Of a DNA stretch of 64,000 nt, positions 4,923-22,309 are shown one piece after another; position 1 is the stretch's first letter, and each line of letters begins with the position of its first letter. The stretch spans positions 29,782-93,781 of the forward strand of contig JAGFNJ010000012.1 in NCBI GenBank assembly GCA_017592775.1, written 5' to 3'. The position numbers and the translations under genes are program-made. The stretch is from Candidatus Accumulibacter conexus (GTDB taxonomy: Bacteria; Pseudomonadota; Gammaproteobacteria; Burkholderiales; Rhodocyclaceae). Under the pieces are notes generated by a model, which did not search any database, had not been told where the DNA came from, and was given only the letters and a program-made list of their open reading frames with translations.

Positions 4923-5312
4923 ATGCCTGCCCTGGGCCTCAATCATTACAACCTGCGCGCGCCGCGCCGACTCATGGAGGAGTTGCGCAGCTTCTACTGC
5001 GATGTCGTTGGCCTGATCCCTGGCGCGCGACCACCTTTCGGCAGCTTTGGCTACTGGTTGTACGCCGGTGGCCAGCCGATCCTGCATCTCTCGGAGGCCC
5101 GGCCCGGCACGCCACCCGGGGCGGGTGCGGTATCGACCTTTGACCACGCGGCCTTCACCTGCAGCGGGCGCGCCGACTTCGAGCACAAGCTGACTGGCTT
5201 GGGCATCGCCTTCACGACGGCGCGTGTGCCGGGCACGACGCAGGTGCAGCTCTTCATCAGCGACCCTGCAGGCAATGGTGTCGAACTCAACTTCGCCACC
5301 GAAGACGCCTGA
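4923..5312 (+). CDS. VOC family (glyoxalase/dioxygenase fold) protein
   Basis: A 129-residue protein with two beta-alpha-beta-beta-beta modules typical of the vicinal oxygen chelate fold. Likely metal ligands are the His in LNHYNL (residue 6), the His in FDHAAF near 71, and the Glu in GVELNF near 123. Known members are glyoxalases, epimerases, extradiol dioxygenases and fosfomycin-type transferases; none can be singled out. GAGG five bases before ATG 4923 decides this start over ATG 4902. The preceding 275 bases (4648-4922) contain no gene I can support. Confidence 0.8.
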   Translation: MPALGLNHYNLRAPRRLMEELRSFYCDVVGLIPGARPPFGSFGYWLYAGGQPILHLSEARPGTPPGAGAVSTFDHAAFTCSGRADFEHKLTGLGIAFTTARVPGTTQVQLFISDPAGNGVELNFATEDA

Positions 5313-5421
5313 CGGGGGCTCGCCAGCGATTCCTTGCTCCGCGGCACGCTGTGCGTGTTGCACGGGGCGGGTTTCGAGTCGGCAACGCCGCTCGGCGGGA
5401 ACCTCGCGGCGACTGCGGCGC

Positions 5422-5823
5422 TCAGCCGCCGTTGGCTTGCCGCCGGGTGCCGCTCGCCCGACCGGCCGGAGCAAGGCAGCACAAGCATTGGCGGAGGGCC
5501 TGCAGGTCGCTCTTCTTGTCGTAGAAGGCATGGGCTCCTGCTTCCAGGCACCGCCTGCGGTACACGTCCTCCGCGTAGTTGGTGAAGACCAGCACTTTCG
5601 TGTCCGGATGGTTCGTGCCCACCGCGCGCAGAACCTCCAGCCCGCTGCCATTGACGAGCTGGATATCGAGCACGACGACATCCGGCGGGTTGCTGCGAAT
5701 GCTTGCGATCGCCGGACCCGGACTGGCAAATTCACCCACCACATCCGCACCCTCGACGTTCGCGAGCATCTCGCGCAGCATCTGTCGGACAACGGCTGAA
5801 TCATCGACGATCAGGATTGACAT
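5422..5823 (-). CDS. stand-alone receiver-domain response regulator
   Basis: A 133-residue protein that is a single CheY-like receiver with a short Arg/Gly-rich tail. The acidic pocket (VDD, residues 6-8), phospho-acceptor Asp53 in VVLDIQL, the Thr in VFTNY and the Lys in YDKKSD are all present, so it should be phosphorylated. It has no output domain and so must signal by protein contact. It is the last gene of a minus-strand signalling block: histidine kinase, NarL-type regulator, pseudo-receiver, this gene. It may accept phosphate from the kinase at 7280-9772. A GTG nine bases upstream (5832) is an alternative start; neither has a strong ribosome site. Confidence 0.88.
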   Translation of the reverse strand: MSILIVDDSAVVRQMLREMLANVEGADVVGEFASPGPAIASIRSNPPDVVVLDIQLVNGSGLEVLRAVGTNHPDTKVLVFTNYAEDVYRRRCLEAGAHAFYDKKSDLQALRQCLCCLAPAGRASGTRRQANGG

Positions 5824-5949
5824 CACGGTCACAGGAAGAAGTCAGCAGCGGTCTCGCGAGATGAGTGTCGTCGGAGTGCCTTGCGTCGGCCAGCCCGGCA
5901 GGGGCCGCATCGCGACGGTCGGCAGGAGCTTGCACCGGCGACGGCAGTG

Positions 5950-6369
5950 TCAGTGCGGCAGCGCGCGGGATTCCGCAGACGCGTGCCGGAGCAGCAGCTT
6001 TTCGACCTGGTCATGCACCACCAGTGCGACGTTCGGCAGCAGGCTGAGCGAGGTCAGCCCCGGAACGTTGGTGATTCCCCGACGCAGCACGATGACGACC
6101 AGCGGATCGGGCACGCCGGCGGATCGGCCGGCCAGGGTGGCATGGACAAAAGCTCGCGACGCCGCGCCCCAGCCAATGACGATCACATCGGGGGTGTGCC
6201 TTGCCGCGCAGTCGTAGGCATCTTCGATCGAACGAGCGGTCGCTACGACCACAAGTCCTTCATTCGCGCGCAGAGCACCGCCGACGTCGGCCAGAAACAG
6301 GTCGTCGGTATCTACCAGCAGGAGACGGGTGCAGTCTGGTTGCAGGGGGGGCGACGCGCAGGCGTTCAT
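5950..6369 (-). CDS. degenerate (pseudo-)receiver protein
   Basis: A 139-residue protein with receiver-fold spacing: RLLLVDTDD (residues 15-23) gives the acidic pocket, and DVIVIGWG (61-68) is strand 3. The Asp that should be phosphorylated is Gly66, and the switch Thr/Ser and Lys positions are also replaced (VIVLRRG; LVVHDQV). It therefore cannot work as a conventional phospho-receiver. Such pseudo-receivers act through constitutive contacts or bind another signal. Start at 6369 places the fold correctly; the frame is open to 6444. It sits between two functional receivers with the same orientation, 118 bases from one and 262 from the other, suggesting a modulating role in the same circuit. 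Confidence 0.72.
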   Translation of the reverse strand: MNACASPPLQPDCTRLLLVDTDDLFLADVGGALRANEGLVVVATARSIEDAYDCAARHTPDVIVIGWGAASRAFVHATLAGRSAGVPDPLVVIVLRRGITNVPGLTSLSLLPNVALVVHDQVEKLLLRHASAESRALPH

Positions 6370-6631
6370 GCTGATCTCCACAGGCACCGGTCCGCGTGAA
6401 GAACGGGCTCCTTCGTGCGCGGTACGATGTGCAGACCGCATCATCCCGCAGCCGCCGGAAATTGACCATCGGTGCCGGATGTATTCTTGCTGTAGGTGTT
6501 GGACGACACGGCGGCAGCAGGGAAATCCCTACATCCCGCGTCTGCCGGCGCTGCCGCTGGTCAGACGGTGACAAGCGCGCTGCCGCGACGGCTCACCGAC
6601 AGCCCGGTTGTCGTCTTCGGGCGTGCCCGTC

Positions 6632-7273
6632 TCAGGAGAGCATCCCCTTCTCGAGCGCGTGCCGCGCCAGTTCCGCGTTGCTCTGCAGCCCGGTCTTCTC
6701 GACGATTCGGGCACGATAGGTGGTCACCGTCTTCGGGCTGAGATGCAGCGCCTCGGCGATATGGTTCAAGCTCTCGCCAGCGGCAATCCGCCGCAGCACC
6801 TCAATTTCCCGGTCAGACAGTGCATCGGCCCCAGATTTCCTGCCCTGCCCCACCTCGAACGCCAACTGGTCCAGCAGCGCCGGGCTCACATGTTTGCCGC
6901 CCCCGGCGACCTTCAGGATCGCCGCCAGGAGCGTCGCTGGTGCGCTGTTCTTCGTCAGGTAGCCGGCAGCGCCGGCTTTCAGCGCGCGCACGGCATAGAC
7001 CTCCTCGGCGTACATGCTCAGCATGAGCACGGCGAGCCTGGGGCGCTCCGTCCTGATCTGCTTCAACAGCTCGAGGCCGCCTTTGCCCGGCAGGCCGATA
7101 TCGACCAGGGCGACATCGAATTCGGTCTGGCGGATCATGCTGATGGCTTGCTCGGCGCTCTCGGCCTCGCCCGCCACTTCCATGTCGCCACTCTGCGCCA
7201 GCAGCAGCCGCAAGCCCCCACGAACGACGGCGTGGTCATCCACCAGCAGGATCTGCAGCTTGCGTCCGCTCAT
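6632..7273 (-). CDS. NarL/FixJ-family response regulator
   Basis: A 213-residue two-domain regulator. The receiver (residues 5-120) has DD12-13, phospho-acceptor Asp58 in VALVDIGLPG, Ser/Thr in MLSMY and Lys in LTKNS. The C-terminal LuxR-type helix-turn-helix (about 150-210) contains LSDREIEVLRRIAAGESLNHIAEALHLSPKTV-like sequence, the standard DNA-binding block. Phosphorylation should promote dimerisation and DNA binding. The gene begins only six bases after the histidine kinase stop, so the two form a cognate pair. The targets are unknown. Confidence 0.95.
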   Translation of the reverse strand: MSGRKLQILLVDDHAVVRGGLRLLLAQSGDMEVAGEAESAEQAISMIRQTEFDVALVDIGLPGKGGLELLKQIRTERPRLAVLMLSMYAEEVYAVRALKAGAAGYLTKNSAPATLLAAILKVAGGGKHVSPALLDQLAFEVGQGRKSGADALSDREIEVLRRIAAGESLNHIAEALHLSPKTVTTYRARIVEKTGLQSNAELARHALEKGMLS

Positions 7274-7279
7274 CGTTCC

Positions 7280-9772
7280 TCAAAACGGCATGCGCAGGGC
7301 CAGGATGGTGCCCCCTGTGGCGCCGCACGAAAGCTTGATCTCGCCATCGAAGCGGGCGGCGCGTTCCTGCATTCCCAGCAGGCCCCAGGACTCCGTCTTC
7401 GTCAGGGCGCCGTCGTCAGTGCCCACACCGTCGTCCTCGACCGCAATCATAACGGCACCGGCGTCGCAACGGACACGAATCTCGGCGCGCGACGCGCGGG
7501 CGTGGCGAACGACGTTGTTCAACGCCTCCTGGACGATGCGAAACATTGCGGTTGCTCGCTCGGGGTCGACCTCGAGTGCGACAACCTCTGGCGAAAGGGT
7601 GACGTCGCATCGCAGACCGGTCCGCTCGCCAATCTGACCGGCGTACCACTCGATCGCCGTCCATACCCCGAGGTGGTCGAGTACGCTTGGTCGCAGATCG
7701 CTGATGATGCGACGCATCGTATCCACCGCCGAATCGAGCAACTGCGACGCGTGCGCAAGCTGTGCGTCGCCGGGCAGAGCCGCCTCCTGCGCACGCTCGA
7801 TTGCCATCGCGATTGCCCATTTGACCGCCGTCAGAGTGCTGCCGAGGTCATCGTGCAGTTCGCGTGCGATCCGCACCCGTTCCTCCTCTCGCACCCGCTC
7901 CAGGTACCGGGAAAGCTGTCGCAGTTCTTCGTTCGACGCCAGGAGCGCATCCTGGCTGCGCTTCAGTGTCGTCATGTCGACCACGTTCACCAGGACGCCG
8001 TCGATGTCGCCATTGACGTTCCGATGTGGCGCGTACGAGGACAAGGTCCAGAAGAGACGCGGATCGTCGCGTCGCTCCGCCACACTCTCCGCGGCAAGGA
8101 GTTTGGTCGTGCCGCGCAGGCGCGGCACGAACTCGTCGGCGACGACCACTTCGCCCGCCAGCGCACGTTGCAGGTGAGCGTCTATGCCGAGCCGCCGCGC
8201 GTCGGGGAACAATTCATCGAGGTGCCTGCCGATCGCCGCCTCGCGCGGCAGGCCGATGGTGCGCTCGAGGAAGCGGTTCCAGACGATCACCCGCAGCGCC
8301 CGATCATAGACGACGAAGCCTTGATTGACATTGTCCAGAAGTTCCTGGGCGAAACCTTCGGCCTGCAGCCTTGCCGTGATGTCCTGCACCGTTGCGACGA
8401 AGAAGTCCACGCGGCCATCCTCGTGCCGCACCGTCCTGACATCGGCCGTGACGTTGATGACCCTGCCATCCTTGCGCAGGAAGCGCTTGTCGGTTTGAAA
8501 GCCGTTGCTCGCGCCGCTCAGCAGACGCTCGAACTGGATCCGTTCGCCTGCGAGGTCGTCGCGGTGGGTGAGCTCGATCCAGCTCAGCTCGAGCAGTTCC
8601 TCGCGCGGGTAACCGAGGATCTCGCAGAGACGATCGTTGAAACGCAGCCAGCGCCTGCTGTCGGCCGCGAGGGTCGTCATGCCGACGAAGGGCAGATCGA
8701 AAAACAAGCGGACCAGGCGGTCCTTCTCCAGGCTCTGGGTTGCCAGTTCGAGCTGGTGCGTTCGCAGTTGCTGGCGCCACAGCAGGACGATCAGGAGAGA
8801 GACGACCAGGATGGCGCAGGTGGCGACCAGGCTGACCCAGAACACCAGGTTGCGCAGTGGCGCGAGAACTTCGTCGCGATCGACCTTCGCCACCAGGTGC
8901 CACGGCGTACCGCTGACCGGGCGCGTCGCGGCGAGCACGTCAACCCCGCGGTAGTCCTTGCCCGCAATGACCTGTGGCGTGCCGGCGAGGACGGCACGGG
9001 CGGCCGGCAGATCGGGATCATCGAGAGGCTGGCTGAAAAGCAGTGCGGTGGCGGTGCGATGACGCAGTTCGTTGAGGTACAGGACGGCGTCTCCGTGCCG
9101 GCGAACGAGCAGTGTCTCGGCACTCGGGCTCGGCGTCGGCCAGCTCTGGATCAGCGGGAAGACGACCCGTTCCACGGGCGTATCGAGGATGACCGCGCCC
9201 ACCGCGCGCCGCCGGCCATCGATTTCCCGCACCAGCGGTGCAACCCAGTCGAGGTGGACACGGCCCGAATCGCTCCGATAGAGATCCGTTGTCGCCACCT
9301 GGGTGGTGTCGAAGGCCGTCTGCAGGGCTCTGCGGACCGGCGCTGCGGCGCTGGCTTCGTCCGCCCCGATGGCGACGATTGGTTGCGCACTGCCGTCCAC
9401 CAGCAGGAAGCCGTCGTAGGAGTACGCCCGTTGCAGCGTTGCCAGTCGCTCCACGATGCGCTGTCGTGCACCCTGCTCGTCGCCATGTGCCGTCGCCCGC
9501 ACGGCATCCTCAATGAGACCGGGGCTGGCACCGAGGACCACGGCGTCGCCACGTCTCTCGTCCAGCCAGGCTTCGATCTGGCCTGCCTTGAGGATGGCGA
9601 TCGCCTGCAGATCAGAGAAGGCCTGCTCCTTCAGGCGCGGGGCTTCCAGGTGGTAGATACCCACGGCAAGCAGCGGCACGATCGACAACAAGCCCAGGAT
9701 GACGGCGGCGACGGCACGCAAGCGTGACTGGGGAGGCAGATGGGCTGCAGGGGAGTGGAAGTTCGCTGGCAC
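7280..9772 (-). CDS. membrane PAS-domain sensor histidine kinase (HisKA_3 type)
   Basis: An 830-residue sensor kinase. Transmembrane helix about 18-40, a large periplasmic sensor of Cache type to about 310, a second helix about 312-336, then two PAS domains (about 360-470 and 480-600). The dimerisation domain has RELHDDLGSTLTAVKW with the phospho-His near 640, typical of the NarX/DegS class, followed by an HATPase_c domain with EALNNVVRHA (N box) and GLLGMQERA. It senses a periplasmic ligand plus possibly cytosolic cofactors bound by PAS. It is upstream of, and probably co-transcribed with, the NarL-type regulator. The signal cannot be inferred. Confidence 0.95.
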   Translation of the reverse strand: MPANFHSPAAHLPPQSRLRAVAAVILGLLSIVPLLAVGIYHLEAPRLKEQAFSDLQAIAILKAGQIEAWLDERRGDAVVLGASPGLIEDAVRATAHGDEQGARQRIVERLATLQRAYSYDGFLLVDGSAQPIVAIGADEASAAAPVRRALQTAFDTTQVATTDLYRSDSGRVHLDWVAPLVREIDGRRRAVGAVILDTPVERVVFPLIQSWPTPSPSAETLLVRRHGDAVLYLNELRHRTATALLFSQPLDDPDLPAARAVLAGTPQVIAGKDYRGVDVLAATRPVSGTPWHLVAKVDRDEVLAPLRNLVFWVSLVATCAILVVSLLIVLLWRQQLRTHQLELATQSLEKDRLVRLFFDLPFVGMTTLAADSRRWLRFNDRLCEILGYPREELLELSWIELTHRDDLAGERIQFERLLSGASNGFQTDKRFLRKDGRVINVTADVRTVRHEDGRVDFFVATVQDITARLQAEGFAQELLDNVNQGFVVYDRALRVIVWNRFLERTIGLPREAAIGRHLDELFPDARRLGIDAHLQRALAGEVVVADEFVPRLRGTTKLLAAESVAERRDDPRLFWTLSSYAPHRNVNGDIDGVLVNVVDMTTLKRSQDALLASNEELRQLSRYLERVREEERVRIARELHDDLGSTLTAVKWAIAMAIERAQEAALPGDAQLAHASQLLDSAVDTMRRIISDLRPSVLDHLGVWTAIEWYAGQIGERTGLRCDVTLSPEVVALEVDPERATAMFRIVQEALNNVVRHARASRAEIRVRCDAGAVMIAVEDDGVGTDDGALTKTESWGLLGMQERAARFDGEIKLSCGATGGTILALRMPF

Positions 9773-9947
9773 CGGTCGAGGATAACCAGCCCCTCAGCGG
9801 CGGTCAATCCAGCTCTCGGCTCTCAGATGTCTTCGGAGGCGGATGACGGGGATTTGTGCGGATTGATCCGGATGCTTCGAATCCGCTCACGGGCCGGCCG
9901 GGAAACACTGCCCGGACCCTGCGGGCGGGGCGGAGTGCCGGGGTTTC

Positions 9948-10024
9948 TGGTGGTGATGGGTGGAATCGAACCACCGACCTAAGGGTTATGAATCCTTCGC
10001 TCTAACCGACTGAGCTACATCACC
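9948..10024 (-). tRNA. tRNA with CAU anticodon, probably elongator tRNA-Met
   Basis: A 77-base cloverleaf: acceptor GGTGATG/CATCACC, D arm GCTC/GAGC, anticodon loop TTCATAA, T arm GGTGG/CCACC with TTCGATT loop, discriminator A and an encoded CCA end. The anticodon CAU fits elongator Met. A lysidine-modified tRNA-Ile cannot be fully excluded, but the body resembles Met. The last anticodon-stem pair is an A-C mismatch (AAGGA with CCCTT), which is unusual. It stands alone with its own promoter. Confidence 0.93.
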
Positions 10025-10036
10025 AGCGGGCGCCGG

Positions 10037-10066
10037 ATTATAGGGTTCTCTCGACTTGCCGGTCAA
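10037..10066 (-). promoter_or_regulatory. sigma-70 promoter of the tRNA gene
   Basis: Read on the minus strand: -35 TTGACC (10066-10061), an 18-base spacer, and a perfect -10 TATAAT (10042-10037). The start point would fall near 10030, a few bases before the mature tRNA 5' end at 10024. Confidence 0.8.
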
Positions 10067-10417
10067 CACGTGGGCGATCGGGTCTCCCGGGCAACGGCTG
10101 TCGCGATCCCCGGCCGGCTCCGACTTCGGCGGTATGCCGGCGGGGGAGTGGCCCGCTCTGGTTTCGATCAGTTAGTATTCCGCCTTCAGGGCAACTGCCG
10201 CCGCTTGCCGCGCGCCAGGGTGGCGCGGTGAGGGGTGCGAGCGGAATCTCGGGCCGGGCGCGCTGGTCTGGGCGGGATCCGGCACAAGCTGGTGCGCGAG
10301 CGGTCGCCCTGCGATTCCTGCAGTCACTCGGAGCTGCGCGCAGGGCCGTGACTGTCGTCAACAACCCAACCCTTCGGGGTGAAGGCCAGGCGGCCGGCGC
10401 GGCCGGGGTGAGGTCAG
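10067..10417. other. gene-free stretch before the SWIM gene
   Basis: About 350 bases between the tRNA promoter and the SWIM zinc-finger gene. Open frames here lack protein-like composition. I see no convincing promoter, terminator or repeat, only a ribosome site (GAGG at 10409-10412) near its right end for the next gene. Confidence 0.5.
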
Positions 10418-11779
10418 ATGTCGGCAGCGGCTGTCAGTTATACCTATCGCTATCCCTGGGCATCGGGTGTCGTGGCGTCGCCACGGGCCCGCATCCTGCA
10501 GCTCGCCACCTGCTCGACCGGCGCCGGGCATCCAAATTTCTTCCACGGCCGCATCGAACAACCACGGTGCGTCGCCGACATGCTGCTGGCGCTGCTCGAG
10601 ATTGTCCGCAGCCATTACTTCCTGCCGCGGCTGCCGCAGATGGATCCGGTGGTGACGAGCAACGACGCGATGCTGCGCTTCGAGGGCTTCAGTGGCTGCT
10701 GCGGCGTCTACGTGCGGGTAGATCTCGCCACGGCGGGGATCGAGTGCGAGCGGGCCGGCCGTGGCACGACCAACGTCGATTTCAACATGCCGATGCGCGC
10801 CGCCCTGATGCGGCTGAGCGACCAGGAGCGAGTCGAATTCTCGGTCGGCCGCGAGGCGTTCACCCTTGCCAGTGGCGAATCCCGCGTCGTCGAGAAGAAG
10901 GTCCGCCTGCCGCTGCGCTGGATCAAGGGCTTCAGTGAAGTGCAGGCCTACCTGCCCCGCTTGCGCGCCGTGGCCGAGGTGAATGGGGCCGAGGCGAGGC
11001 GCTTCGCGCGCAGCCTGCCGGCGGGAAGCGTGCCGCGGCAGCCCTCGTTCGCAGTGCAGTCGGCTGGCGGCCTGCGTCTCAGCCAGCGACCGGCCGCCGA
11101 GTGCGCGCAGGTGCATGGCCTGCACCGCCTGCGTACACTGGTTGGCCTGGTGCAGCGCGCCGTCGGGCTGCGCATCTGGAGCGATCCGCTCTCTGGCGCT
11201 TCCGCGTGGGAAGTCATCCTGCCACCGGGGCGGGTGACGCTGTTGCTCAGTCCGGCAACCGAGCGCGGTTTCTCGGGCGAAGGACAGGTACTGGCGACTC
11301 TGGCCGGGGGCGTCGGTGAACCGGCACTGGCGAGCGTGCGCGCGCAATTGTGCTGGCAGAATGAGCTGCATCTCGGGCAGGTGGCGGCCGTGACCGGGCT
11401 GCGCGAGGACGAGGTCGCTGCGGCGCTGGCAGCACTCGGCGCCCGTGGCCTTGCCGGTTACGACTGCAGCAGCGGTCGTTACTTCCATCGCGAACTGCCT
11501 TTCGACCACGATCTGGTCGAAGCGCTGCAGCCGCGCCTGCTCGCTGCACGCGAGCTGTTGCAGCAGAACAAGCTGCGACCGCTCGCCGCCGTCGCCGGCG
11601 GAGGTCACGATGTCGCCGTCGTCGGCAGCGACGTGCTGCACCATGTGCGCTTGCGGATTGACCGCGATCGCTGTTCATGCCCATGGTTCAGCAAGCACCA
11701 GGGTGAGCGCGGGCCGTGCAAGCACATCCTCGCGGCGCGCCTGTTTCTCGGCGAGACCGCCGAGGATGCCGGTGCGTGA
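10418..11779 (+). CDS. SWIM zinc-finger protein
   Basis: A 453-residue cytoplasmic protein. Near the C-terminus, residues about 418-436 carry the SWIM zinc motif: C-x-C (CSC), then after about a dozen residues CKH. SWIM domains bind DNA or protein partners. The rest (residues 1-400) is not recognisable by family, apart from a winged-helix-like stretch near 320-355 (LHLGQVAAVTGLREDEV). E. coli YehQ is a known SWIM protein in a MoxR/vWA-associated gene set, and this protein may be related. Its stop overlaps the start of the giant gene (TGATG), so the two are translationally coupled. No MoxR ATPase or vWA gene is nearby. Confidence 0.8.
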   Translation: MSAAAVSYTYRYPWASGVVASPRARILQLATCSTGAGHPNFFHGRIEQPRCVADMLLALLEIVRSHYFLPRLPQMDPVVTSNDAMLRFEGFSGCCGVYVRVDLATAGIECERAGRGTTNVDFNMPMRAALMRLSDQERVEFSVGREAFTLASGESRVVEKKVRLPLRWIKGFSEVQAYLPRLRAVAEVNGAEARRFARSLPAGSVPRQPSFAVQSAGGLRLSQRPAAECAQVHGLHRLRTLVGLVQRAVGLRIWSDPLSGASAWEVILPPGRVTLLLSPATERGFSGEGQVLATLAGGVGEPALASVRAQLCWQNELHLGQVAAVTGLREDEVAAALAALGARGLAGYDCSSGRYFHRELPFDHDLVEALQPRLLAARELLQQNKLRPLAAVAGGGHDVAVVGSDVLHHVRLRIDRDRCSCPWFSKHQGERGPCKHILAARLFLGETAEDAGA

Positions 11780-14700
11780 TGGATGAGCGGGGACTTGCGG
11801 CGCTGGTCGCGCGCCATTCGCCGTCCGAGGTCGTCGATGCGCTGCTCGCCCTGCCAGTCGACCAGCGCCGCGCGCTGGCGCCGATCGCCGCCAGGCTCTG
11901 GCGCGCGGTGCAAGGCGGGCGGGTACTCAATGACTGGCTGCTGCTGGTCCCGGGAGTCGGGACGACCAAGGAAAGCAGCAGCTTCGGTCGCCGCTGGCGT
12001 GCGCAGCAGGCCCGGCTCTCGCTCGCCGTTCTCTGCCTGTGCCCGGTCGACCAGGCGCGCCGGGTGGGGTGGTTCGGTGCCGGTGTCAGCGATGACCTGC
12101 TGCGCCGGGTCCTGCTGGCACGCGATCAGGCCTGGCGCGATGCCTGGCTGCGGCACCGGCTGCGTGAGGATTTTTCCGGCCTGTCCTGGGCGACGGTGCG
12201 CGGCCTGATTCGCGACGGGATCTGCGTCCGTCCCTCTGACGAAGCGGCCTTCGCCGGCTATCTGCGCCTGCTGGTCGATCAACTGAGCCCGGGCGTGCCA
12301 CGCCAGGGGAACCCCTACCGGCCGCCCAGCGCCGGCCTGCTGGCCGACCCGGACCTGCTCGAGGACGAGGTCTGGCGCCTTTTCGATACCGACACCAGAG
12401 CCTTCGACGACTCCTGGCTGCGCCGCTCGCCGCGTTGCCCGGCGGACTACGAGAGCTGGAGCGAGGCGCTGCTCCGACTGGCGGGGGACGGCCGCCTCGA
12501 CCGCCAGCGGCTGCTTGATGCCAGTCTCGCCGGCCTCTGGAAGAGCGCCGACAACGGCGTCGTCGCCGGCTATCACCGTCTGCATGCCCGCCTGTCGCCC
12601 GCCGCCGCCGAAGTCGACGTCCGCGAAGCTGCGTACCGCGAACTGCTCGGACACCGCAGCGGACAGGTCGTCGTCTTCGCACTCCGTCAGATGACGCAGA
12701 TCGCCAACCGACGATCGCTGCTGTCCGTGCCGATGCTGGCGGCAATGCAGCCCGTCTTCGGCCTGCCCGCGAAGACGCCGGCGCTGGCGGCGCTGCGGCT
12801 CCTGCGCCGACTGTTGCGAAGCGAATGGTCCGCCGATCAGGACCCGGCGACGCGCGACGCGACGCATGCCGTCCTGGTCGCGGCGCTGCGGCATCGTGCG
12901 AGCGAGGTGCAGCGGGTGGCGGCGGAACTGCTCGGCGAGCACGCGGCTGCCGGCGGTGGCGTACCAGCGGCGGCCGTCGACGAACTGGCAGGCGAGGTGT
13001 CGCCGCCGGCGCAGCAGCTGCTGGCCGCCCTCGTTGCCGAGCGCGCGCCCTGCGCACCCCTGTCGCGAGCCGCTGTCGCGGCAGATGCCATCGCGCCGCC
13101 TGCCGGCGACGCCGCTGCCGTGTCGACGGCGGCCGCCGAACCGTCGGCGCTCGGCCTGGGCTCGCTGCCGCAGCGGCTGCGCGCACTGGGTGGCATTGCC
13201 GCTGCGGTTGACCTCGCAGCGCCACCGCCACCGCTCGCCTTTCGTCTCAGCGACCTGCCGCAGCTGGCGGCGCTGCCGTGCCTGCAGCCGATCGCCAGCG
13301 TCGACGAACTGATCGATTGCGTCGCGCATGCGGTCGAGACGATCGCTTCGGCCGATGAGGTCGAGCGCATCGTGGACGGTGTCGCCCGCTTCTTCGACGA
13401 GCGCCCGGATGATTTCGCGGCCCGGACGCAGGCTCTGGCGTGGCGGATTCATCGCGGCGCGTCGGCCGATGCACGCGGGCTGGTGCTCCCGGGCAGCCCG
13501 CTGGCGTTGCGGGATCTCGTCCTGACCTGGCTCGAAGGCGGTCTGCAGCAGAGCAGCCTGCCTTTGCACCTGCGGCTGCGCGGTGCGATGCGCTTCATCG
13601 ACAGGCGCCTGCGCGAGTTGGCCCGCCACCTCGACCGCCACGGGGCGCTGGTGCCGCTGGCAACGCCGACGCACGCCCGTGGCTGGCTCGATGCCCGGGT
13701 CTTTGTCCAACGGCTGGCTGGCTATCAGTCGCCGGCGCGACAGCCGCTCTTCACCGACCTGCTGCAGGCGCTGCTGCGGCTGGCGCCCGATGGGCGGCAG
13801 GAGGCGCTGGCGACGGCCACCACCCTGCAGGGCGCTTGGGCCCCCGCGGTGCGCTGGGCGCTTGGTGGCGACACCGGGCCCGGTGCTGCCGACGGCAGGC
13901 ATGCCGCGATCTGGATCGCTGCCGGTCGCGCCCGTTGCCCGGACGGCGATCTCAGTGCTGCCCTGGCGCCGCTCGGTCTGCGCATCGGCTGGCCCGACGT
14001 GCTGCAGAACGCCGAGTATCGATGGCGCGCGCTGACGCGCACCGTTCGCCAGCAGCGGCGCGAGATCCGCTTTGCTGCCCTCGAGGTGCAGGTGTCGCCG
14101 CCGTGGGCGGCAGGGCGATCGGCCGCGCGGAATGCGCGGCATGACGACAGCCACGGCGGTGGCGCATCCATTCTGCCGGCGGTCGGGCGGTGGCTGCGGA
14201 CTGCCGGGGCGGCGGTCCGGCTGCGCCATCTGAACCCGCTCCTGGCGCTACCGACCTGCCTGCCGCACGAAGCGATGCCGCATCGCTCGCTGACGGTTGG
14301 TACCAGCGCGGCGTGGATGATCGAATGGTCGCTGTCGCTCTGGCCGCTCAACGTAGACGCAGCGCTGGCAGCCGCTGCCCGGCTGATGGTCGAGCGGATC
14401 GACCAGGGGGCGAGCGCCGCCGAACCGCTGCACCCTTTCCTCGAACCCCTTTTCGAGGCGGATCGGCCGTGGTCGGAGATGGGCCGCCTGCTGCTGTCGG
14501 TGGCCCTCGCCAGCCGGGACGGCGACCTGCGTCGACTGGCTGTCGACCTGTTGATCGAAGGCGTCCACGATGGCCGCGCGCAGCCGCAGGAACTGGCCGA
14601 TGTCTGGCAGCGGCTGCACGCTGGCGGCTGGCTGAAGGCGAACCGGCTGACGTCGGCGCTCGCCGAGGTGGCATGCGTGTCACCGCTGCATCGCTGGGCG

Positions 14701-15003
14701 GTCGCGAGCCTGATCGAAAGCGCGATCGAGGTCTTCCTCGCGCAAGGCGGCAGGGCTGGCGCGGCGCTCGAACTGTTGCACGAGTCGCTGATCACGCTGC
14801 AATGTGGGCCGCTGCCGGCGACCGCCGACAGGCTGGCCGTGTTCGGCAGCGGCAAGGCGGGCAGCGCCGCACGGGCGATCCGCAGCCTGGTTGAGCACAC
14901 ACCGCTGGCGCGTTCGCCGGTGGCGCTCGAACTTGCGTGGCAGGCGCGCTACCGCAGGCTGCAGCGCTGGGCCTTGGGCGAGGCGCCGGCAGCGACCGGT
15001 TGA
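11779..15003 (+). CDS. giant helical-repeat-like protein, DUF6493-like (tentative)
   Basis: A 1,074-residue protein with no signal peptide or membrane helix. It is rich in Ala, Leu and Arg and made of many short amphipathic helices. One example is near residue 310, where RSGQVVVFALRQMTQIANRR is followed by repeated LLRRLL segments, suggesting HEAT/ARM-type repeats. The N-terminus (LVARHSPSEVVDALLALPVDQRRALAP) resembles DUF6493 proteins, which in other bacteria neighbour SWIM genes; that match is from memory and unverified. It overlaps the SWIM gene by one base and ends the unit. A scaffold role is a guess. A long minus-strand frame over it is a coding shadow. Confidence 0.72.
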   Translation: MDERGLAALVARHSPSEVVDALLALPVDQRRALAPIAARLWRAVQGGRVLNDWLLLVPGVGTTKESSSFGRRWRAQQARLSLAVLCLCPVDQARRVGWFGAGVSDDLLRRVLLARDQAWRDAWLRHRLREDFSGLSWATVRGLIRDGICVRPSDEAAFAGYLRLLVDQLSPGVPRQGNPYRPPSAGLLADPDLLEDEVWRLFDTDTRAFDDSWLRRSPRCPADYESWSEALLRLAGDGRLDRQRLLDASLAGLWKSADNGVVAGYHRLHARLSPAAAEVDVREAAYRELLGHRSGQVVVFALRQMTQIANRRSLLSVPMLAAMQPVFGLPAKTPALAALRLLRRLLRSEWSADQDPATRDATHAVLVAALRHRASEVQRVAAELLGEHAAAGGGVPAAAVDELAGEVSPPAQQLLAALVAERAPCAPLSRAAVAADAIAPPAGDAAAVSTAAAEPSALGLGSLPQRLRALGGIAAAVDLAAPPPPLAFRLSDLPQLAALPCLQPIASVDELIDCVAHAVETIASADEVERIVDGVARFFDERPDDFAARTQALAWRIHRGASADARGLVLPGSPLALRDLVLTWLEGGLQQSSLPLHLRLRGAMRFIDRRLRELARHLDRHGALVPLATPTHARGWLDARVFVQRLAGYQSPARQPLFTDLLQALLRLAPDGRQEALATATTLQGAWAPAVRWALGGDTGPGAADGRHAAIWIAAGRARCPDGDLSAALAPLGLRIGWPDVLQNAEYRWRALTRTVRQQRREIRFAALEVQVSPPWAAGRSAARNARHDDSHGGGASILPAVGRWLRTAGAAVRLRHLNPLLALPTCLPHEAMPHRSLTVGTSAAWMIEWSLSLWPLNVDAALAAAARLMVERIDQGASAAEPLHPFLEPLFEADRPWSEMGRLLLSVALASRDGDLRRLAVDLLIEGVHDGRAQPQELADVWQRLHAGGWLKANRLTSALAEVACVSPLHRWAVASLIESAIEVFLAQGGRAGAALELLHESLITLQCGPLPATADRLAVFGSGKAGSAARAIRSLVEHTPLARSPVALELAWQARYRRLQRWALGEAPAATG

Positions 15004-15027
15004 TCACCTAGTGTTCATGATATGTCC

Positions 15028-15056
15028 TGGACAAAACGGATTGGTCTGGCTACAAT
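15028..15056 (+). promoter_or_regulatory. sigma-70 promoter of the MerR/B12 regulator
   Basis: -35 TGGACA (15028-15033), exactly 17 bases, -10 TACAAT (15051-15056), each one base from consensus. The predicted start near 15063 gives a leader of about 46 bases before ATG 15109. The region is markedly more AT-rich than its surroundings. Confidence 0.75.
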
Positions 15057-15108
15057 TGCGAGGAATCGTCCTCTGGGACTCGAATTTCCTTATTTTGCTC
15101 AAGACAAT

Positions 15109-16026
15109 ATGACTACTCGTCCCGCGATGAACATCAGCGCCGTCGAGCGCGACACCGGTCTCGGCAAGGACACCCTGCGTGTCTGGGAGCGGCGTTACGG
15201 GTTCCCGAGCCCGGCGCGCGACGATAACGGCGAGCGCGTGTACCCTGCCGAGCAGGTCGAACGGCTGCGGCTGATGAAGCGCCTGATCGATCAGGGACAC
15301 CGTCCCGGGCGGTTGTTTGCCAGGAGCGACGCGGAGCTTGCCGAACTCTGTTCTTCCCGTCGGCCGTCCGCTGTCGCCAGCGACGACCCGGCGGCGTGCC
15401 TGGTGGACCACACCATGCAACTGATCAGGCGGCACGATGTGGCAGCGCTGCGGCAGAGCCTCAATCAGGCGATGATGCGGCTCGGCCTGCAGCGCTTCAT
15501 CGTCGAGATCGTCGCGCCGATGAATCATGCCGTTGGCGAGGCGTGGATGAACGGCGAGTTCGAGGTTTTCGAGGAACACCTTTATACCGAACAGATCAAG
15601 GCGCTGCTGCGGCAGGTGATCGGCAACCTGCCGGCGGGCAGCGGGCGACCGCGCGTCCTGCTGACCACCGTTCCCGAAGAACTGCACGTCCTCGGCCTGC
15701 TGATGGTCGAGGTACTGCTCACGCTCGATGGTGCAAGCTGCATCTCGCTCGGGACGCAGACTCCGGTCTTCGACATCGAACGGGCTGCGACGGCGCACCA
15801 GGCCGACATCGTCGCGCTGTCCTTTTCCGCCGCTTTTCCTGGCCGGCAGCTTGCCGGTGTCAGCAGCCAGTTGCGGCAGTTGTTGCCGGCGTCGATCGAT
15901 CTGTGGCTGGGAGGCAGCGGCGTTCAGCGCCTGCCAGCGCAGACCGGTGTCGTCCTCCTGTCGTCGCTGCAAGAAGTGGTCGACGCGCTCGCCGGCTGGC
16001 GCAGCGAGCGGGCCGCGAGCAACTGA
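15109..16026 (+). CDS. MerR-family regulator with cobalamin-binding domain (CarH/LitR-like)
   Basis: A 305-residue regulator. An N-terminal MerR helix-turn-helix (ISAVERDTGLGKDTLRVWERRYG) is followed by a helical bundle and a B12-binding Rossmann domain. The diagnostic W-x9-EH motif of CarH-type photoreceptors is intact (WMNGEFEVFEEH), and the cobalamin-ligating segment reads ELHVLG, i.e. E-x-H-x-x-G where D-x-H-x-x-G is usual, so the axial His is kept. Known relatives bind adenosylcobalamin and release DNA on illumination. Light or B12 sensing is therefore inferred. ATG 15109 is used; ATG 15127 is also possible. Its targets are not obvious, but the B12 enzyme icmF lies 3 kb away. Confidence 0.88.
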   Translation: MTTRPAMNISAVERDTGLGKDTLRVWERRYGFPSPARDDNGERVYPAEQVERLRLMKRLIDQGHRPGRLFARSDAELAELCSSRRPSAVASDDPAACLVDHTMQLIRRHDVAALRQSLNQAMMRLGLQRFIVEIVAPMNHAVGEAWMNGEFEVFEEHLYTEQIKALLRQVIGNLPAGSGRPRVLLTTVPEELHVLGLLMVEVLLTLDGASCISLGTQTPVFDIERAATAHQADIVALSFSAAFPGRQLAGVSSQLRQLLPASIDLWLGGSGVQRLPAQTGVVLLSSLQEVVDALAGWRSERAASN

Positions 16027-16232
16027 ACAGGTGACGTTGCCCGCGGGGTCACCGCCCGGCGCTGCTGCGCGGCTGATCGTTCGCGGGGCATGACAACTGT
16101 CACGGCAGATGCGCGTACCGCTGCGGCAAGGCGCGCCATCCGGCAACTCCGCGTCCACGTCTGCAGCCGCAATCCTTCGGGACAGCGCGTCGCCCGCGCG
16201 CCGAATGTAAAAACATCGTGCATTTTTGTTGT

Positions 16233-16275
16233 GACGGTCCTCCCAGGGCATAGGATATGCGTCCTGGCGACCGTC
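16233..16275 (+). repeat. inverted repeat / hairpin 1 in the leader of the acyltransferase-PilZ gene
   Basis: Arms GACGGTC...CCAGG (16233-16247) and CCTGG C GACCGTC (16263-16275) pair with one small bulge; GCAT/ATGC continues the pairing within the loop. No T-run follows on either strand, so a classic terminator is unlikely. Confidence 0.55.
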
Positions 16276-16280
16276 GTCTT

Positions 16281-16333
16281 GCGGCTCGCGGCACGTTGAC
16301 TGCCCTCACGGGCGTGCCGTAGAGGAGAGCCGC
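16281..16333 (+). other. nested hairpin 2 (possible structured leader RNA)
   Basis: Three stacked stems: GCGGCT/AGCCGC (16281-16286 with 16328-16333), GGCAC/GTGCC (16290-16294 with 16314-16318), and GCCC/GGGC (16302-16305 with 16310-16313) closing a TCAC tetraloop. It lies 5 bases after hairpin 1 and about 80 bases before the gene. It matches no riboswitch class I recognise. Confidence 0.45.
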
Positions 16334-16411
16334 GTCCGTAGCGGCACCGGCCGGCGATGGCGGTCGATGGCAAGCGACAGGTGCCTTGCTTCTTGCGGAC
16401 GGGGGTGGGAG

Positions 16412-19042: not shown

Positions 19043-22000
19043 ATGACCGATCTTTCCATTGCCAAGAAGCTTCTACCCTACAAGCCCAAGCACAAGGTGC
19101 GTTTCGTCACCGCCGCTTCGCTGTTCGACGGGCACGATGCATCGATCAACATCATGCGCCGCATCCTGCAGTCGACCGGCGCCGAGGTGATCCACCTCGG
19201 CCACAACCGTTCGGTACAGGAGATCGTCAACGCGGCGCTGCAGGAAGATGTGCAGGGAATCGCCATCACCTCCTACCAGGGCGGCCACGTCGAGTTCTTC
19301 AAGTACATGATCGACCTGTTGCGGGCGGGCGGCGGCGAGAACATCAAGGTCTTCGGCGGCGGCGGCGGCGTCATCGTGCCGAGCGAGATCGAGGAACTGC
19401 ACGCCTATGGCGTGACGCGCGTCTATTCGCCCGAGGACGGCCAGGCCCTGGGTCTGCAGGGAATGATCAACGAGGTCGTCGCGAAATCCGACAACGACCT
19501 GTCGTCGCTGGCACCGCAGGACACCGACGCCGTCCTCGCTGCCCTGAAGAGCGGCAGCCGGCGGCAACTGGCACAGATCATCACGGCGCTCGAGAACGGT
19601 GCCTATCCGGAGGCGTTGCGCAAGAAGCTGCTGCATGCCGCTGCCGGGCTCAAGGTGCCGGCGCTCGGCATCACCGGCACCGGTGGCGCCGGCAAGTCGT
19701 CACTGACCGACGAGCTGGTGCGGCGCTTCCGGCTCGATCAGGGCGACGGTATCAAGCTGGCGATCATCTCCATCGACCCGTCGCGCAAGCGTACGGGTGG
19801 GGCACTGCTGGGTGACCGCATCCGGATGAACGCCATCGAGCATCCGCACATCTTCATGCGCTCGCTGGCGACACGCGACACCGGGTCGGAACTCTCCGCC
19901 GCGCTGCCGGAAGTGGTCGCAGCCTGCAAGCTGGCGGGCTTCGACCTGGTCATCGTCGAAACCTCGGGGATCGGCCAGGGCAACGCCGCCATCGTGCCAC
20001 TGGTCGACGTCTCGCTGTATGTCATGACCCCCGAGTTCGGCGCCGCATCGCAGCTCGAGAAGATCGACATGCTCGATTTCGCCGATTTCGTGGCGATCAA
20101 CAAGTTTGACCGCAAGGGTGCCGACGATGCGCTGCGCGACGTCCGCAAGCAGTATCAGCGCAACCACGAGGCCTTCAGCCAGAGTCCCGACGAGATGCCG
20201 GTGTTCGGCACCATGGCCGCGCGCTTCAACGACGACGGCGTCACCGCGCTGTACCAGGCGATCGTTCCCAAGCTGCACGGCTGCGGGCTGAAGCTGAAGA
20301 AGGGCCGGCTGCCGCTGGTGGGCGTGCGGCAGTCGTCGAACCAGCGTGCCATCGTGCCGCCGCAACGGGTCCGTTACCTTGCCGAGATCGCCGACACGGT
20401 CCGTGCCTACCACGCGCACACCGCCGAACAAGCCGAGATCGCACGCCAGCGGCAGTCGCTGCGGACCGCCGAGGCACTGTTCGAAAGCTGCGGCAAGCCG
20501 GCAGCGGATTTCGCCGAGTTGATCGCCTGGAAGGATGCGCAGCTCGACCCGCGCTCGCGCAAGCTGCTCGACATGTGGCCGAAGACGGTCGAACTCTACG
20601 CGCAGGACGAGTACGTGGTGAAGATCCGCGACCGCGAGATCCGCACCCGCCTCACCGGCACCTCGCTCTCCGGGTCGCGCATCCGCAAGGTCGCGCTGCC
20701 GACCTACAAGGATGAGGGCGAAGTGCTGCGCTTTCTGCTGCGCGAGAACGTCCCGGGTTCCTTCCCCTTCACCGCCGGCGTCTTCGCCTTCAAGCGCGAA
20801 AACGAGGATCCGACGCGGATGTTTGCCGGCGAAGGCGACGCCTTCCGCACCAATCGGCGTTTCAAGCGGGTCTCCGAGGGAATGCCCGCCAAGCGCCTGT
20901 CGACTGCATTCGACTCGGTCACCCTCTATGGCTGCGACCCCGACGCACGCCCGGACATCTACGGCAAGGTCGGCAACTCCGGCGTTTCGATCGCGACTCT
21001 CGACGACATGAAGGTCCTCTTCGACGGTTTCGAACTCTGCGCACCGACGACCTCGGTATCGCTGACGATCAATGGCCCGGCGCCGATCATCCTGTCGATG
21101 TTCTTCAACACCGCGATCGACCAGCAGGTCGACAAGTTCCGCGTCGACAACGGCCGCGACCCGACCGAGGACGAGATCGCCAAGATTCGCGTCTGGGTGC
21201 TGGCCAACGTCCGCGGCACGGTGCAGGCGGACATCCTGAAGGAGGACCAGGGACAGAACACCTGCATCTTCTCGACCGAGTTCGCGCTGAAGATGATGGG
21301 TGACATCCAGGAGTTCTTCGTCCACAACCAGATCGGCAACTTCTACTCGGTATCGATCTCCGGCTACCACATCGCCGAAGCCGGCGCGAACCCGATCTCG
21401 CAACTGGCCTTCACGCTCGCCAACGGCTTCACCTACGTCGAAACCTATCTCGCGCGCGGCATGCACATCGACGACTTCGCGCCCAACCTGTCGTTCTTCT
21501 TCAGCAACGGCATGGATCCCGAATACTCGGTGATCGGGCGCGTCGCCCGCCGCATCTGGGCGGTGGCGATGAAGAACAGGTACGGCGGCAACGAGCGCAG
21601 CCAGAAGCTGAAGTACCACATCCAGACATCCGGCCGCTCGCTGCATGCGCAGGAGATGGCGTTCAACGACATCCGCACGACGCTGCAGGCGCTGATCGCC
21701 ATCTACGACAACTGCAACTCGCTGCACACCAACGCCTACGACGAGGCGATCACGACCCCGACCGAGGAATCGGTCCGCCGGGCGATGGCGATCCAGTTGA
21801 TCATCAACCGCGAGTGGGGCCTGGCGATGAACGAAAACCCGAACCAGGGATCGTTCATCATCGACGAGCTGACCGATCTCGTCGAAGAGGCCGTGTTGCG
21901 CGAGTTCGAGGCGATCGCTTCACGCGGCGGGGTCCTCGGCGCCATGGAAACCGGTTACCAGCGCGGCAAGATCCAGGAGGAATCGCTCTACTACGAGCAC

Positions 22001-22309
22001 AAGAAGCACGATGGCTCGTTCCCGATCGTCGGCGTCAACACCTTCCGCAACCCGCATGGGGATGCCCAGATCGAGATCGAACTGGCGCGCTCGACGGAGG
22101 AGGAGAAGCAGTCGCAATTGCAGCGCCTGCAGGCCTTCCAGGGTTGCAATGCCGCCGCCGCCGCCGCCATGCTCGAGCGCCTGCAGCGCGTCGTCATCGA
22201 CAACGGCAACGTCTTCGCGGTGCTGATGGACGCTGTTCGCGTCTGCTCGCTGGGTCAGATCACCAACGCACTCTACGAGGTCGGCGGTCAGTACCGCCGC
22301 AGCATGTAG
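19043..22309 (+). CDS. icmF: fused isobutyryl-CoA mutase IcmF
   Basis: A 1,088-residue fusion, the expected length. An N-terminal B12-binding domain has D29-G-H31-D-A-S with the axial His31. It is followed by a MeaB-type G-protein chaperone domain with Walker [10 protein letters not shown] (about 212-220) and NKFD (about 352), then the acyl-CoA mutase TIM barrel from about 560. IcmF interconverts isobutyryl-CoA and n-butyryl-CoA (some versions accept isovaleryl-/pivalyl-CoA) using adenosylcobalamin, with the built-in GTPase protecting and reloading the cofactor. This serves branched-chain or short-chain acyl-CoA metabolism. It is a single transcription unit with a strong hairpin after the stop. 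Its neighbour on the left is a likely AraC regulator. Confidence 0.95.

Follow-up and report, generated by a model that had tools for sequence, protein, structure and literature searches.

Two overlapping genes

We analysed a stretch of 64,000 nucleotides from Candidatus Accumulibacter conexus, referred to here as the window, in which a gene for a SWIM zinc-finger protein is directly followed by a gene for a giant partner protein. The features of the two genes are listed below.

10418..11779, + strand: SWIM gene, 453 amino acids (open reading frame and overlap; Pfam SWIM; PADLOC SWIM_XIII, E = 2.6e-49); predicted parts are a PCNA-like clamp, a winged helix and a SWIM zinc finger (AlphaFold2 pLDDT 90.4; Foldseek PCNA)
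10535..11248, + strand: predicted two-domain sliding-clamp fold, residues 40-277 (secondary structure of the model, Foldseek, helix charge)
11318..11488, + strand: predicted winged helix, residues 301-357 (model; winged-helix regulators of the PDB matched by profile, though not significantly, E = 0.15-0.95)
11642..11737, + strand: SWIM zinc finger, residues 409-440 (Pfam PF04434, E = 2.3e-6)
11779..15003, + strand: large partner gene, 1,074 amino acids (DUF6493/DUF7824/DUF7825; predicted helical solenoid, AlphaFold2 pLDDT 87.0)
11812..12759, + strand: DUF6493 domain, residues 12-327 (Pfam, E = 2.2e-20)
13585..13947, + strand: DUF7824 match, residues 603-723 (Pfam, E = 9.1e-16)
14014..14097, + strand: predicted beta hairpin, residues 746-773 (model; the sole strands of at least 3 residues)
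14320..14730, + strand: DUF7825 match, residues 848-984 (Pfam, E = 2e-13)

As originally predicted, the two genes encode proteins of 453 and 1,074 residues and overlap, sharing the single base A of a TGATG in which the SWIM stop codon TGA meets the ATG of the large gene; the list of open reading frames also offers a longer alternative GTG start for the large gene at 11716. The finger residues C419, C421, C434 and H436 fall in nearly invariant alignment columns, and the DUF6493 match scores 73.5 bits against a curated Pfam cut-off of 25. NCBIfam provided no name for either protein. Within the genus both genes evolve as real proteins, with dN/dS values (Nei-Gojobori; 10 pairs per gene among 5 genomes, the large gene being contig-truncated in two) of 0.17-0.27 for the SWIM gene and 0.30-0.37 for the large gene.

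The pair had also been described as isolated from other genes. This holds for its upstream side, where approximately 390 bases separate it from a tRNA-Met gene, but not for its downstream side, where a CarH-like regulator gene (MerR and B12-binding domains, 15022-16026) follows the large gene after 18 bases on the same strand. Moreover, in four relatives from the genus other genes directly adjoin the pair. Pfam searches, which covered L016, L017 and L018, place the pair beside two trypsin-TPR genes in L016 and L017, and in L018 and L019 the pair lies beside a type II secretion/pilus-like operon and a metallophosphatase gene. The two trypsin-like peptidase and TPR genes of L016 (3546-7714) stand in tandem directly upstream of the SWIM gene; L017 has one such gene (5771-7993), with an equal-sized gene between it and the SWIM gene. 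Elsewhere in the window, positions 19043-22309 encode a single protein with B12-binding, MeaB GTPase and methylmalonyl-CoA mutase domains, and ARAGORN called a tRNA-Cys (8111-8201), probably falsely, inside a histidine kinase gene (7280-9772).

Recurrence and coevolution of the pair

Co-occurrence across genomes had been named beforehand as a check on the pair. To this end, ten SWIM queries were searched against genome_contigs (one genome per species, 84,980 species). At least 597 stretches matched, at least 577 of them encoding a relative, and the best 80 were taken; one of these (L040) duplicated a genus relative in the set, which leaves 79 loci. A DUF6493-type partner adjoins the SWIM gene in 77 of the 79, as determined with a large-family profile to which most of these loci contributed members. 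In the two exceptions the contig stops early, about 200 bases past the SWIM gene in L091 and within that gene in L097. An earlier profile, for which the window, one Asticcacaulis plasmid and two genus relatives (one being the genome of L040) supplied the sequences, had found the partner in 77 of 80 loci and missed L100 as well. Because the loci are the nearest relatives, this frequency should not be extended to more distant SWIM proteins. The loci represent ten phylum-level groups, led by Pseudomonadota, Actinomycetota and Planctomycetota, according to record titles that include many metagenome bins. One bin with the pair (L050) is titled Klebsiella pneumoniae and is possibly mislabelled.

The SWIM gene precedes its partner on one strand in 75 loci, and in L085 and L099 the partner lies upstream on the opposite strand. 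Measured with the most upstream in-frame start, the intergenic gap is at most 20 bases in 67 of the 75 same-strand loci, and a four-base overlap occurs in 39. The large gene occurs twice in six loci, the extra copy encoding at least 767 amino acids, and also twice on a Diaphorobacter plasmid. Nine plasmid records matched SWIM: six carry a DUF6493-type partner, with the SWIM gene appearing in two frames in one of them, and one carries a retron; the remaining two, a lone SWIM gene (L038) and a SWIM fragment (L128), have neither. A SWIM gene without a partner was seen in Streptomyces cadmiisoli. RefSeq records from Asticcacaulis, Diaphorobacter and one Streptomyces plasmid contain the same pair as 'SWIM zinc finger family protein' and 'DUF6493 family protein'; those examined give these names alone, without a function, a clamp fold or a link to retrons.

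The two proteins coevolve, at unequal rates. Across 66 shared loci, the identity matrices of the SWIM proteins and their partners correlate with r = 0.89, a value that includes common host ancestry, and the maximum over 1,000 permutations was 0.09. Mean identity over these loci is 44% for the SWIM protein and 23% for the partner.

When the genes of 89 loci were clustered by similarity, these two families alone recurred widely. One candidate third cluster (283 open reading frames in 76 of the 89 loci) was rejected as shadow frames, 269 of the 283 being antisense to SWIM or partner matches; the next cluster, exemplified by a histidine-kinase ATPase, is present in 11 of 89 loci. About one half of the neighbours are co-directional with the pair (43 of 74 upstream, 32 of 67 downstream). 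The immediate neighbours were picked by an open-reading-frame rule rather than by a gene caller, with 5 of 141 omitted for length, and the commonest Pfam families among the remaining 136 occur four times each and include ordinary metabolic genes. Among the 25 of 103 matched families listed, single neighbours match PtuA, PtuB, AbiEi, PD-T4-6 and mad6 models. An enrichment in defence islands was set aside, since the neighbourhoods are varied and these single matches stand without a control set. Recurrence of the pair and the lack of a widely recurring third gene in these loci bear out the proposal of an independent two-gene module.

The other version of the original prediction, a reduced MoxR ATPase/vWA set, fared differently. 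The E. coli yehILMPQ genes (MoxR ATPase, vWA, SWIM, DUF4132) also combine a SWIM protein with a giant protein, and the SWIM finger common to YehQ and the window protein speaks for such an origin; however, no homology beyond that motif was found. The SWIM family profile did not match YehQ (hhalign probability 2.5%), nor did the large family profile match YehI or YehM (0.1 and 0.2%), the hhalign comparisons being made with single Yeh sequences. Phmmer searches with YehI, YehL, YehM, YehP and YehQ, run without a positive control, gave no match in the window, the 79 pair loci, four genus relatives or the two other SWIM loci of the genome. The window thus gave no match to the ATPase and vWA partners, whose absence had been noted, and because no Yeh protein matched at any of the 79 loci the comparison fails. 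We regard a reduced set of this kind as largely refuted and very improbable.

Predicted structures of the two proteins

The order of strands and helices in residues 40-277 of the SWIM protein pointed to a sliding clamp ahead of any fold search. The AlphaFold2 model, computed from a 76-sequence alignment that left out 4 of the 79 loci, has a mean pLDDT of 90.4, and its best Foldseek match, an unexpected one in view of the original prediction, is human PCNA (6hvo_A, E = 5.9e-10, probability 1.00). In total, 488 chains pass an E-value of 0.001. Every one of the 50 rows listed is an entry for PCNA, 9-1-1 or DnaN; in four cases the entry is a clamp-loader complex in which the length of the matched chain suits the clamp. 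For the PCNA rows, TM-scores normalised by target length are 0.60-0.68 and those normalised by query length only 0.35-0.39, with rmsd values of 4.6-8.1. The range 40-277 was taken from the secondary structure of the model and not from the Foldseek alignment. By sequence, neither Pfam nor a profile search against solved chains detected the similarity. The charge of the four clamp helices was also evaluated: it is net positive in all 76 sequences (+1 to +7, mean +4.62), and the rest of the clamp region has a mean charge of +0.74 and is positive in 40 of 76. The inward orientation of these helices comes from the fold match rather than from coordinates. At position 237 all 76 sequences have Lys or Arg. 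These data strongly predict that the SWIM protein consists of a clamp, a winged helix and a SWIM finger.

Sliding clamps such as PCNA, 9-1-1 and DnaN share with the predicted structure the repeated beta-alpha-beta-beta-beta units and the positive helices. In the window protein, by contrast, the clamp part is followed by a winged helix and then the SWIM finger, and among the neighbours of the pair neither a clamp-loader nor a polymerase family recurs. Beyond the zinc finger, many of the best-conserved residues lie in 76-123 (10643-10786) and 283-289 (11264-11284). They include the invariant polar residues D76, R87, E89, N119, D121, N123 and E159, and an RGFSGEG motif is located just after the clamp. 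The polar residues conserved in strands 78-120 and this motif exceed what a passive clamp explains and leave room for a further activity.

The large partner is predicted to be a helical solenoid. Its AlphaFold2 model (73 sequences, pLDDT 87.0) is nearly all helix with one long hairpin, and its best profile match among solved chains, the AP-1 beta subunit (E = 0.01), is not significant alone. That the large gene might prove to be a known enzyme had been named as a finding that would speak against the pair; profile searches of Pfam, NCBIfam and PADLOC matched no known enzyme family. The proposed division into a scaffold and a nucleic-acid-binding subunit is consistent with both models, the partner being nearly all helix and the predicted parts of the SWIM protein being suited to nucleic acid.

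Kinship to type XIII retrons

The nearest relative found for the SWIM protein is, by profile comparison, the SWIM protein of type XIII retrons (retron class names follow the PADLOC profiles), a kinship that was unexpected and absent from the original prediction. The PADLOC profile SWIM_XIII (PDLC02972) matches the window protein at the E-value listed above, and residues 74-447 are homologous to the retron protein (hhalign 99.9%, 365 columns), which makes the kinship well supported at the level of sequence. Residues D76, P77, T80, E89, F91, S92, G116, N119, D121, E159, W168 and R237 are identical in all four retron SWIM proteins compared, two of which are near-copies. In contrast, the columns R87, C94, N123, Q176, R283 and E288 of the pair family are not conserved in the retron proteins, and the RGFSGEG motif is not kept. 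In a quick, unrooted tree the four retron proteins group together at the end of a long stem of their own, and the SWIM_XIII match of the window is best described as a remote subfamily.

In type XIII retrons, as in the window pair, the SWIM protein is homologous and a giant is encoded in the adjacent gene. There, however, the SWIM gene lies between a gene for a WGR/HEAT giant and one for a reverse transcriptase (RT), in the order giant, SWIM, RT (L029, L030, L031 and L039), whereas the pair has the order SWIM, giant and is without an RT. None of the 79 pair loci contains a match to an RT or to WGR_XIII, with L029, L030, L031 and L039 detected as positives, and none of the seven RVT_1 matches of the genome is located on the contig of the window. 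PADLOC gave no match to the large protein even at E = 10, WGR_XIII and HEAT-ARM_XIII included, and the DUF6493 partner has no significant similarity to the WGR_XIII giant (hhalign 4.5%, the WGR_XIII alignment comprising 3 sequences). Sequence comparison accordingly detected no homology between the DUF6493 giant and the WGR_XIII giant, YehI or YehM. In an Rfam scan of 9700-16400 only the tRNA reached the gathering score, although Rfam may not hold a type XIII RNA. Membership in the type XIII retrons proper was rejected, as neither an RT nor a WGR partner was matched.

The SWIM_XIII profile matched 5 of 398 genomes of a phylum sample (the genome of the window counted), with three strong matches. 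Each of these three has an RT within approximately 1 kb and a giant partner; PADLOC assigned both giants scanned to WGR_XIII and the single RT scanned to RT_XIII. In a class sample, 8 of 369 genomes contain 9 SWIM loci, of which four are partnered by DUF6493 without an RT match (two of these lie on contigs shorter than 8 kb, one such contig being apparently identical to that of L046) and the other five are retron-like. Three of the retron-like loci include an RT, and L141 reaches a contig edge. The fifth, L139, contains a WGR_XIII and SWIM_XIII pair (5030-10101) with no RT match in 19 kb and represents a second kind of RT-free pair; the genes after it resemble those for lipoate ligase and lipoyl synthase. 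L140 (28-11825) and L142 (1258-12957) show a four-gene retron XIII layout of giant (2,149 or 2,117 amino acids, respectively), smaller protein (738 or 742), SWIM and RT. In the L140 giant, matches to HEAT repeats and to WD40-type propellers were recognised, and the smaller protein of L140 has a marginal BRCT match. Because no RT match was found at any of the 79 pair loci or beside the L139 pair, the SWIM protein and a giant partner look like the core, with the RT as an option.

Retron effectors are often toxins kept under restraint, and it is conceivable that the pair resembles a toxin-antitoxin system in which one protein is harmful, the other restrains it, and an imbalance on infection halts growth. 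The overlapping or abutting genes, their fixed order and the different evolutionary speeds of the two proteins would suit such an arrangement. However, Pfam, NCBIfam and PADLOC revealed no known toxin domain in either protein, the usual antitoxins are far smaller than the large partner, and the SWIM gene of S. cadmiisoli stands without a partner. On balance we consider this explanation improbable.

Distribution and decay

DUF6493 was found in 5 of 101 genomes (the genome of the window counted), all five in its genus, which contributes 28 genomes to the set. In the phylum sample it was found in 2 of 398 genomes, again with the genome of the window counted; the second (G199) has a 501-amino-acid DUF6493 frame and no SWIM match within 20 kb. 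Relatives also allowed inspection of the site between the tRNA-Met gene and the gene for the CarH-like regulator. In the one-contig genome G016 both flanks are kept and scattered remnants of both genes are present, with six stretches missing. In G024 one large deletion near a contig end removes most of the pair. The CarH-like regulator gene is retained in both. G003, G014 and G027 have no pair at this site, and G014 and G027 carry it elsewhere. ARAGORN confirmed the tRNA-Met in G016, G003 and G014, and not in the stretches of G024 or G027. In relatives the locus is thus accessory: it is sporadic and, in two cases, decayed in place. Carriage by phages received no support from 50,697 phage records, which gave no match, and none of 15 pattern matches in viral contigs was confirmed.

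These observations bear on the alternative that the pair is a resident accessory of DNA repair or replication, in which a specialised clamp and a scaffold aid a host polymerase or nuclease and have no role in defence. The predicted clamp fold, purifying selection as seen in dN/dS, and the ordinary genes among the neighbours are all compatible with this alternative. Within Actinoplanes the neighbours of the pair are common to several species, which suits a resident gene equally with a defence gene. On the other hand, the sporadic presence (5 of 101 genomes) and the decay in G016 and G024 imply that the pair is dispensable, and the homologous SWIM protein works in type XIII retrons. A resident accessory therefore seems rather unlikely to us.

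Proposed function

Taken broadly, the pair is probably a defence or genome-maintenance module. More specifically, we would give about an even chance to a two-gene DNA-surveillance module, most likely defensive, that is an RT-free cousin of the effector pair of type XIII retrons. We prefer a defensive role on three grounds: the SWIM protein is related to that of a retron, the pair occurs sporadically, and it has decayed in two relatives. In such a module the clamp portion of the SWIM protein, as an oligomer that may form a ring, would encircle or dock on DNA, and the winged helix and the C-terminal SWIM finger would contact or read DNA or RNA. The faster-evolving DUF6493 solenoid would bind the SWIM protein so as to hold, load or gate the clamp, and may recognise the trigger. 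Since neither protein has a known catalytic domain, the output would be a blocking, recruiting or harmful interaction rather than cutting. In type XIII retrons, the WGR/HEAT giant would replace the DUF6493 partner, with the RT added beside it.

A more tentative extension, which we hold to be possible rather than probable, is that the pair is an immune module built on a PCNA-like clamp, the clamp, winged helix and SWIM finger being loaded on or scanning DNA together with the giant solenoid, and that such a pair was the ancestral core to which an RT was later added, giving rise to the type XIII retrons. We know of no study of the mechanism of this retron class. None of the titles and abstract openings that we surveyed, with few subscription papers among them, concerned the pair or a clamp fold in retron SWIM proteins, and the main text of PMC13092281 mentions neither SWIM nor DUF6493.

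If the ancestral-core reading is true, type XIII retrons would be a clamp-based system in which msDNA controls clamp loading, and the sliding-clamp fold of replication and checkpoint proteins would have been recruited into a bacterial two-gene system and a retron class. Type XIII retrons thereby gain a concrete hypothesis, with a clamp on DNA, a HEAT giant as its gate and msDNA as the trigger, and the pair represents an RT-free version in which this hypothesis can be tested. For the DUF6493 families, the predicted solenoid beside a clamp would provide a first structural meaning.
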